Assembly (NCBI RefSeq): GCF_003008425.1
Contig: NZ_PXOQ01000009.1
Span: 379,501 to 443,500, forward strand
Direction: 5' to 3'
Source: Aurantibacter aestuarii
GTDB taxonomy: Bacteria > Bacteroidota > Bacteroidia > Flavobacteriales > Flavobacteriaceae
Length of the DNA: 64,000 nucleotides
In this document: piece by piece, positions 16,321 through 64,000 of the stretch
Layout of the letters: each line of letters opens with the position of its first letter
Numbering within the stretch: position 1 is the first letter of the stretch
The notes under the pieces: model-generated
What the model was told of the DNA's origin: nothing
The model's database searches: none
The model's input: the letters and a program-made list of their open reading frames with translations, nothing else
Translations under genes and position numbers: made by a program

Positions 16321-16372
16321 TGTTAATTTTTGTTTAACTTTTATTTATTTTAGTTAAACATTCATATCTTTA
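16321..16372 (+). promoter_or_regulatory. Shared operator copy A and promoter of the tetR gene
   Basis: Contains TGTTAA (16321), TGTTTAAC (16331-16338), a 14-base spacer, then the exact inverted half-site GTTAAACA (16353-16360). A -7-like TATCTTTA follows at 16365-16372. The block of 19 bases from 16321 is identical to 25037-25055, and the inverted half-site recurs there at the same distance. This looks like a binding site for one regulator at two promoters of the photolyase island. Confidence 0.7.
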
Positions 16373-25036: not shown

Positions 25037-25089
25037 TGTTAATTTTTGTTTAACTATTTTAAATAAACCTTAAACATTTTGTAACTTTG
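25037..25089 (+). promoter_or_regulatory. Shared operator copy B with promoter for the second half of the island
   Basis: TGTTAATTTTTGTTTAACT (25037-25055) is identical to the copy before tetR. It contains TGTTTAAC (25047-25054), a 14-base spacer and the inverted half-site CTTAAACA (25069-25076, 7 of 8 bases). A good -7 box TAACTTTG follows at 25082-25089. No TTG is found at the -33 distance, so the promoter may need an activator. It lies in a 120-base gap and starts the transcription unit running toward folE and phr. Confidence 0.72.
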
Positions 25090-62679: not shown

Positions 62680-62714
62680 AAAACCGTCTAAAACAATATG
62701 TTTTAGACGGTTTT
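62680..62714 (-). terminator. Terminator of the AraC-BLUF gene
   Basis: A 15-bp perfect stem (62680-62694 with 62700-62714) and a 5-base loop, 20 bases past the stop codon on the - strand. Confidence 0.9.
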
Positions 62715-62733: not shown

Positions 62734-64000
62734 CTATTTATTGACTTGCTCAACCAACAAATGATTTCTTGTTTTCTCCCAAAAATGAGAGGCACTCAAT
62801 CCTTTGTGTTTTAATAAGTCTAAAGAAATTTCTGGATTTAAAAATTTAATTGCTTTTTGGTCTTTAAAAAATGAAGGACTATTATCTATAAGTGCCATAC
62901 TCCATTCTTTAAAATATCGGCCAGCCTTAACACCTTCATAAAGTTTTATCACATTTTTATGCCTGTCATCTTTAGAAATTTTTTTCATTAATTTTAAAAT
63001 ATCATCTTTTGGTCCCTCTAATATTTGAAAGAAATAAGAATCATGATAAATTAAACAGCCATTAATTCCCTTTTTTAAATTATTAATACGAGATACTTCA
63101 ATAATATCAGAAATATCTTCTGCATTAATTTTTGAACTTGCTTTAGAATAATAACAATATTCAAACGTTGGATGTGTTAAATGGTGGTGTTTCTTGTATT
63201 CTGTGGGCAATAAACCATACCGCTTGGCAAAAATCTTTGAAAAATAACTGCGACTATTAAAACCAATATTGTAAACAATTTCGGACATTGATAAGTCGGT
63301 CGTTTCAATAAGTTCTTTGGATTTTAATATTCTTAAATTGGTTATAAATTTATTTACACTTTCATCAAAAAACAATCTAAATCCTAATTGTATTTTCTTT
63401 TGATTTAAACCACTTACTTTTTCTAACTCTGATATAGTTAATGTTGATGATAAATTGTTGGTAATATATTCACTTAAAGCTATAATTTTTGAACGTTCCG
63501 TTTGATTAAGCTTAGACTCTTTAGAATCAGTATTAAATTCGCTAGAATTATAACTTTTAAATTGAGCAGATAGCATTTTAAAAACAGAAGCTTCAAATAC
63601 AAGTCTGTTTGCCAGACCTATTAAATCGTTATTTATAATTTGCTTAAAATACTTACTACAATCTAAACTAATTTCTCCAAAATAAGCATAGCTTTTACTA
63701 CGGTCTACATTAGCAATTAAATCTTTAAGTAAATGAGATAAACGGCTTGTTTTTACAAAATTGGTATAGTCAATAATTTGACTGGTAATTGAGATAATAC
63801 TCATTCTAACCATGGATTGATCCTTAAAGTAAAATTGACTTGAATAGTAGTCATTACCACCTAAAATAACATTTTGTAATCTATGAATTTCCTTCTTTTC
63901 ATTTTCTGATGAAAATTTATGAGAAATACTTCCTTCAAAACAAAACACAAAATGTAATGCTTCTGTTAAATTAAAAAAATTATCAATTTTAAATCCATTT
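62734..64000 (-). CDS. AraC-type regulator with C-terminal BLUF blue-light sensor domain, 5' end cut by window edge
   Basis: The frame is open to the right edge (GTG at 63948 is inside the gene, since NLTEALHFVFCFEG reads on upstream), so the N-terminus is missing. Residues below are counted from that GTG. About 1-140 is an AraC-type regulatory domain. About 155-255 is the AraC double helix-turn-helix (TISELEKVSGLNQKKIQLGF and MSEIVYNIGFNSRSYFSKIF). About 262-355 is a BLUF domain with every key residue: Tyr267 (CYYSKAS), Asn289 (SRINN), Gln308 (FFQILEGP), Trp349 and Met351 (KEWSMALID). It should bind FAD and respond to blue light; targets are unknown. BLUF at the C-terminus of AraC is a rare fusion as far as I know. 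Confidence 0.9.
   Translation of the reverse strand, partial: NGFKIDNFFNLTEALHFVFCFEGSISHKFSSENEKKEIHRLQNVILGGNDYYSSQFYFKDQSMVRMSIISITSQIIDYTNFVKTSRLSHLLKDLIANVDRSKSYAYFGEISLDCSKYFKQIINNDLIGLANRLVFEASVFKMLSAQFKSYNSSEFNTDSKESKLNQTERSKIIALSEYITNNLSSTLTISELEKVSGLNQKKIQLGFRLFFDESVNKFITNLRILKSKELIETTDLSMSEIVYNIGFNSRSYFSKIFAKRYGLLPTEYKKHHHLTHPTFEYCYYSKASSKINAEDISDIIEVSRINNLKKGINGCLIYHDSYFFQILEGPKDDILKLMKKISKDDRHKNVIKLYEGVKAGRYFKEWSMALIDNSPSFFKDQKAIKFLNPEISLDLLKHKGLSASHFWEKTRNHLLVEQVNK

Follow-up and report, generated by a model that had tools for sequence, protein, structure and literature searches.

AraC-BLUF, a candidate one-component blue-light transcription factor from Flavobacteriaceae

A gene at the end of the window (the whole stretch of 64,000 nucleotides analysed here) encodes an AraC-type DNA-binding domain followed by a BLUF domain, and we consider it likely, from domain matches and alignments, that its product, AraC-BLUF, is a one-component blue-light transcription factor. 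A single protein thus probably converts light into gene control, as the join between both domains is kept in around thirty related genomes. A wider picture is put forward tentatively, in which an old single fusion would have given rise to a family of BLUF photoreceptors whose own chain provides the DNA-binding output, having spread among the Flavobacteriaceae and to at least one species of the Haliscomenobacteraceae, controlling their own promoters through a site like CCC[GA]AT-N-G-N-GTTA, with a rigid joint of fixed length between the light sensor and the helix-turn-helix (HTH), and possibly working with a paralogous AraC protein as a two-regulator switch. The features of the gene are the following, with positions in the window and residues numbered in the full protein:

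62737..63999, minus strand: in-window part of the AraC-BLUF fusion gene (residues 61-481 of 481)
62734-62736, minus strand: stop codon of AraC-BLUF, whose start lies outside the window, at G000:C6:443679
63415..63999, minus strand: N-terminal AraC-type region (residues 61-255), modelled as strands and then helices, with residues 1-60 beyond the window
63190..63414, minus strand: HTH_18 / AraC DNA-binding domain (residues 256-330, Pfam)
62893..63162, minus strand: BLUF domain (residues 340-429; Pfam, structure search, alignment)
62737..62892, minus strand: C-terminal tail (residues 430-481), whose end is modelled as a helix that contains W467
63151-63153, minus strand: Y343, putative BLUF photocycle Tyr
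63079-63081, minus strand: N367, putative BLUF photocycle Asn
63025-63027, minus strand: Q385, putative BLUF photocycle Gln
62902-62904, minus strand: W426, BLUF Trp
62896-62898, minus strand: M428, BLUF Met
62680..62714, no strand: terminator-like hairpin of 16 pairs (z -6.4), between AraC-BLUF and its downstream neighbour, which we take by eye to be proC

The open frame at 62734-64000 of the minus strand runs over the window edge, and the missing N-terminus was recovered from the flanking sequence of the host genome (G000, 2.9 Mb in 19 contigs). The full gene spans G000:C6:442234-443679 and encodes 481 aa from an ATG that is preceded by an in-frame TTG, 60 of these residues falling past the window edge. 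The GTG at 63948, from which the first-pass annotation had numbered its residues, is not a likely start; the full gene begins at the ATG, at 443679. The fusion proposed in that annotation was borne out, in such a way that both domains were found by Pfam and the same join was present in 33 distinct full-length sequences. For the part inside the window, BLUF (PF04940) scored 95 bits against a cut-off of 25, covering positions 3-92 of 92, while HTH_18 scored 57 bits (cut-off 33.6) and HTH_AraC 28 bits (cut-off 26.6). In the full protein, HTH_18 (256-330, E 2e-15) and BLUF (340-429, E 3e-27) were both above the curated cut-offs. The domain search assigned the C-terminal region to BLUF and not to some other family, and the AraC DNA-binding module is complete, as had been claimed, with an additional N-terminal region that is cut by the window edge and showed no Pfam match. 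A phmmer search against solved structures led from the BLUF part to bPAC, AppA, PixD and BlsA, and from the HTH part to AraC-family proteins. The domain matches place a photosensor and a DNA-binding domain in one chain, and this is the sole BLUF match in the whole genome. A search of the genome for rhodopsin gave no match either, a result that carries no weight since its control also matched nowhere. Near the gene, Rfam gave no match and a promoter scan performed no better than shuffles; the terminator-like hairpin before the putative proC suggests that AraC-BLUF is the last or sole gene of its transcript.

The distribution of the protein was also studied. Across 397 genomes of the family, a full-length search at E 1e-40, with scoring limited to four candidates per genome, detected at least 13 fusions, carried by 10 of the genomes, and a draw of 395 genomes from the phylum, searched at E 1e-50, gave full-length fusions in three (G000, G154 and G456). 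BLUF matches as such were found in 154 of the 397 genomes of the family, and among the matches listed most were short stand-alone frames. One Flavobacteriaceae genome (G253) carries a 355-aa frame with a BLUF and a cyclase-like region (L176:1854-2882), bPAC-like by eye. On the contigs of species genomes, a single-protein query produced no match, and a query with a 13-row alignment produced 79 distinct loci, some of them AraC-only and some fusions; the fusion-bearing records include ones named Polaribacter, Portibacter, Galbibacter, Maribacter, Aquimarina, Zobellia, Euzebyella, Pareuzebyella, Pricia and Dokdonia. In all, 33 distinct full-length fusions from around thirty genomes were gathered, nearly all of Flavobacteriaceae and one of Portibacter, with identities to the query of about 27-44% in the alignments made. 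Five duplicates (L041, L045, L046, L054 and L055, of L065, L076, L077, L075 and L132, respectively) and L082 are not counted among the 33, and the set was collected with BLUF and HTH patterns, in such a way that its proportions are not frequencies. The fusions of two loci labelled Algicola and Cytophaga (L063 and L079) nest among those of Flavobacteriaceae in the AraC tree, with Dokdonia and Euzebyella, and these labels may be misleading.

A structure model of AraC-BLUF was built from an input of 40 aligned sequences (mean pLDDT 80), with a pTM of 0.51 that leaves the arrangement of the domains unsure. The modelled BLUF part superposed on Tll0078 (1x0p) with an rmsd of 0.8 Å over 95 columns, and in the same predicted model some three residues separate the last AraC helix from the first BLUF strand. 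Foldseek aligned the model to Rns, CsvR and ToxT over 268-292 columns with an rmsd of around 20 Å, and hence only locally. Residues 218-436, which comprise the HTH, the linker and the BLUF domain, form a block of 219 columns without indels in 33/33 fusions. As 350 of the 462 windows of linker length in this alignment are free of indels, most of AraC-BLUF being ungapped, a constant linker length is by itself unremarkable; the position of the domain boundary inside the 219-column block suggests a rigid joint.

Upstream of AraC-BLUF lie a divergent gene of 151 aa, with no Pfam family above the cut-off, and an AraC paralogue of 338 aa (L006:8316-9332). The promoters were analysed by expectation-maximisation on the 250 bases that precede each of the 33 fusions, which produced a motif like CCC[GA]AT-N-G-N-GTTA with a log-likelihood ratio (LLR) of 101.9, against 54-63 for eight dinucleotide shuffles with equal starts, and 102 against 46-55 for simple shuffles, which had fewer starts. 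In a thinned set of 23 promoters, with 10 near relatives removed, the LLR was 78.7 versus 48-59 for shuffles. As controls, motifs of similar strength came from AraC-only promoters (LLR 83-107 for three samples of 33 without thinning), and sequence downstream of the fusions reached an LLR of 72.5, more than any shuffle of the upstream set. The promoter of the fusion in this genome holds a longer version of the motif, CTCAATCGGGTATATAATTAAC, 122-143 bases before the ATG (443801-443822), between AraC-BLUF and the 151-aa gene (intergenic region G000:C6:443680-443860), and this site fits the family motif imperfectly. The longer consensus was written from three promoters (this genome, G256 and Portibacter), so that the match in L075, with three mismatches, is the only independent one. 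Genome-wide, each of the other 15 matches (two with three mismatches and 13 exact for the short motif) falls within a called reading frame, the promoter region of the fusion itself being the sole intergenic match. A genome-wide regulon was not detected with the short motif, as its 13 exact matches, all within called frames, compare with 16 for a reversed control. The intergenic match, at a site chosen partly from this same sequence, favours autoregulation, with the divergent gene also under control, rather than a broad regulon.

The neighbourhoods of 25 fusion loci and 53 AraC-only loci, all from the 79-locus search, were compared. AraC aside, no gene family was present in more than 6 of 27 loci, so synteny yields no target. 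In two loci (L064:10341-15277 and L069:10394-15320), genes for a bacteriophytochrome, heme oxygenase, response regulators and an AraC protein lie beside the fusion, the identities in L069 being assigned by BLAST to the L064 proteins (57% identity for the phytochrome homologue); putative red-light and blue-light sensors would here stand side by side. Matches to the L064 phytochrome used as a probe, mostly kinases, were found in 9/25 fusion versus 6/53 AraC-only loci (p 0.015, uncorrected), and matches to the L069 probe in 10/25 versus 9/53 (p 0.046), an excess of kinase-type neighbours that is weak because of near relatives and the use of several probes. That these kinases, detected by BLAST, were phytochromes was rejected: of six scanned, a Pfam phytochrome region was found in one (L064), the other five being kinase/PAS only. 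The gene for the SOS-associated peptidase SRAP was detected in 38/53 AraC-only loci (L083-L138) versus 2/25 fusion loci, and a stress-locus context for the fusions was dropped on the basis of this low count. In the loci looked at from L089 to L138, a recurring cluster contains related AraC genes with SRAP and DUF2383-like genes, in some cases also with DNA topoisomerase IB, DUF421 and a stand-alone BLUF, and it looks like a stress or DNA-protection locus.

The paralogous AraC gene bears on what the main input to AraC-BLUF may be. A ligand or a partner AraC protein, acting through the N-terminal region, might be the main input, with light at the BLUF domain only tuning the response, an idea that is compatible with a light-regulated factor and that we consider possible, if doubtful, as the paralogue at the locus could form mixed dimers with the fusion. 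Along this line, clustering (35 members in 27 loci, with that of L132 added) showed a second AraC gene in 8/27 loci. Also in its favour, the neighbour AraC of the window is the sister of that of the Portibacter fusion in the AraC tree (SH-aLRT 100), and a clade of five (SH-aLRT 98) unites both fusions, suggesting that this particular pair has stayed together. By contrast, matches to the N-terminal region revealed two or more AraC genes in 29/53 AraC-only loci versus 3/25 fusion loci, which makes multiple AraC genes a habit of the wider family and not a mark of the fusions.

For AraC-BLUF to respond to blue light, its BLUF domain should keep the residues that make the photocycle in AppA and PixD. 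The five residues claimed in the first-pass annotation are all present in the alignment to AppA and bPAC, and two of the numbers were off by one. Gln308, Trp349 and Met351 were right and correspond to Gln385, Trp426 and Met428 of the full protein, while the given Tyr267 is residue 344 and the given Asn289 residue 366, the correct ones being Tyr343 (266 in the earlier count) and Asn367 (290). In the phmmer alignment the column of Y343 holds Phe in the bPAC entry 5mbk and Tyr in the other bPAC entries, a difference that marks it as the column of the photocycle tyrosine. Among the fusions, Y343 and Q385 are conserved in 33/33, as is W467 of the modelled C-terminal helix, and N367 is conserved in 32/33. 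W426 is kept in 27/33 and replaced in the other six, and position 428 is Met in 21/33 and Leu in 12/33, so the photocycle may differ within the family. For the BLUF part, dN/dS values of 0.11 and 0.055 were obtained from the only two pairs with unsaturated dS in this region, which points to purifying selection on the BLUF part in these two measurable pairs. The G154 genome carries a tandem pair of AraC-BLUF genes (L143:6402-9500), the second of them with Lys at the position of Asn367 and Cys at that of Trp426; this copy may have lost normal photochemistry.

These variations have to be weighed against the idea of a light switch. The BLUF domain might have been retained for sensing flavin or redox state, or as a module for dimerisation or protein contacts, with no switching by light. 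The relaxed Trp/Met pair is consistent with this, as is the lack of significant enrichment of light-related genes beside the fusions, either for heme oxygenase (2/25 fusion versus 0/53 AraC-only loci, p 0.10) or for photolyase (1/25 versus 0/53, p 0.32). However, a mere contact module would not require the Tyr, Gln and Asn that are kept almost without exception, and we regard this alternative as unlikely.

The window also contains a photolyase island, as noticed in the first pass, with four photolyase-like genes. The island holds in addition a TetR-like gene and genes for an ABC1 kinase, a flavin reductase, a GTP cyclohydrolase and TspO. The link between the fusion and the island that was suggested earlier we consider weak. 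On the positive side, in Euzebyella marina (L075) homologues of the TetR-like gene, the ABC1 kinase and the photolyase (43, 68 and 58% identity to those of the window, respectively) lie a few kb from the fusion, this being one of 25 loci with such a neighbourhood. The TetR-like gene is present in 10/10 fusion-bearing genomes of the family draw versus 250/387 others (p 0.014 one-sided, 0.018 two-sided), and in 10/10 versus 230/320 among genomes at least 90% complete (p 0.039 and 0.067), with p values that ignore kinship. Both observations speak for direct control of the photolyase island by AraC-BLUF in response to light. Against this, the motif of the fusion promoter has no match in the island, the remaining 24/25 fusion loci showed no photolyase match, and the dyad at 16321 and 25037, proposed as a target of AraC-BLUF, turned out to belong to a separate palindrome that sits before the TetR-like gene.

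This palindrome, TGTTTAAC-N14-GTTAAACA, is found at 16331-16360, with a one-mismatch copy within the island at 25047-25076. The exact copy lies in front of the TetR-like gene of the island and also before its homologue in Euzebyella marina (L075:5083-5112); other matches have two mismatches each, their total is not above the control, and none was detected near AraC-BLUF. It is a candidate operator of the TetR-like protein of the island, a TetR-type dimer being the natural candidate to bind it. The motif and palindrome searches revealed no candidate operator common to the fusion promoter and the island, and direct control of the island by AraC-BLUF appears improbable.

The origin of the fusion was analysed in trees of its two parts, both made by quick searches on a pattern-drawn sample, the BLUF tree with few columns and the AraC tree with L082 on a long branch. 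In the BLUF-part tree, a branch (SH-aLRT 96) separates the 33 fused domains from L082 and 36 stand-alone rows, the latter being the best-scoring matches of the family plus BLUFs beside AraC loci, with two identical rows. In the AraC-part tree, of 99 rows, a single clade of 42 (SH-aLRT 99) contains all the 33 fusions and nine AraC-only rows that include L082. As the fused BLUF domains form a clade apart from the stand-alone ones, the fusion probably arose once, and the presence of eight AraC-only genes and the unfused L082 inside the AraC clade supports that BLUF is dispensable in places; the simplest account would be one fusion followed by about two losses of BLUF. AraC-BLUF is a conserved protein family, probably of single origin.

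In L082 (L082:7869-9320), an AraC gene and a BLUF gene lie in tandem in the same frame, three bases apart with one stop. A fission of the fusion was rejected as its origin, since the BLUF groups with the stand-alone rows, and it looks like a second, independent pairing of AraC and BLUF. This tandem arrangement could also suggest that the fusion itself is an assembly artefact or a chance read-through of two genes, an explanation with practically no probability left, refuted by 33 distinct fusions, each a single open frame, and by the stand-alone type of the L082 BLUF.

Returning to AraC-BLUF as a blue-light transcription factor, a mechanism can be proposed. The C-terminal BLUF domain would bind FAD, and under blue light the hydrogen bonds that link Tyr343, Gln385 and the flavin would be rearranged. 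This rearrangement would be relayed through the first BLUF strand and the C-terminal helix with Trp467 to the two helix-turn-helix motifs of the AraC domain, resulting in altered DNA binding or activation, while the N-terminal AraC region would serve for dimerisation and perhaps for a second, chemical input. The likeliest first target would be its own promoter region, shared with the divergent 151-aa gene, and for the direction of the switch our guess, by analogy, would be activation in light. Most of what is known of BLUF signalling comes from partner proteins, cyclases or EAL enzymes. If the proposal is true, one gene would suffice to switch transcription by blue light, which would be of use as a tool in Bacteroidota. 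AraC-BLUF would then also offer a clean system to see how a small photochemical change in BLUF reaches a DNA-binding domain, and it would tell how these bacteria read light.

We compared AraC-BLUF with known systems. AppA, PixD (Slr1694, Tll0078), BlsA and bPAC have the same BLUF domain and fold, and the alignments with AppA and bPAC show the same Tyr and Asn columns. These proteins consist of BLUF alone or carry it together with a C-terminal regulatory region or a cyclase, and they are not AraC proteins, whereas in AraC-BLUF the BLUF domain is C-terminal to the output domain. ToxT, Rns, CsvR and other AraC-family regulators with solved structures also have an AraC HTH after an N-terminal region; unlike them, AraC-BLUF carries an extra C-terminal BLUF domain and tail. 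EL222-type proteins differ from AraC-BLUF in their photochemistry and in the type of HTH. In the part of PMC4844311 that deals with them, these LOV-HTH proteins follow the same logic of a one-component blue-light transcription factor, with a LOV sensor instead of BLUF.

According to a 2014 review (section 2.2, PMC4844311), 64% of the bacterial BLUF proteins are short and 34% have EAL domains. As described in parts of PMC3509220 and PMC8508746, respectively, the BLUF proteins BluF of E. coli (on BluR) and BlsA of Acinetobacter act on transcription regulators; there the regulator is a separate protein, whereas in AraC-BLUF it is in the same chain, and the tandem AraC and BLUF genes of L082 may represent a two-protein version of AraC-BLUF. 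Among the open PMC papers listed in literature searches, none describes an AraC-BLUF protein in its title or at the start of its abstract; the catalogue of Kaushik et al. 2019 may contain such an entry. There is a precedent for a BLUF domain joined to a regulator: Table 4 of PMC8508746 lists, following Kaushik et al. 2019, a BLUF+AcrR protein of Curtobacterium luteum. By its annotation in that table, this protein resembles AraC-BLUF in having BLUF and a DNA-binding regulator in one chain; its regulator is TetR-type and it is one entry in a selected table, whereas AraC-BLUF has an AraC regulator and constitutes a conserved family.
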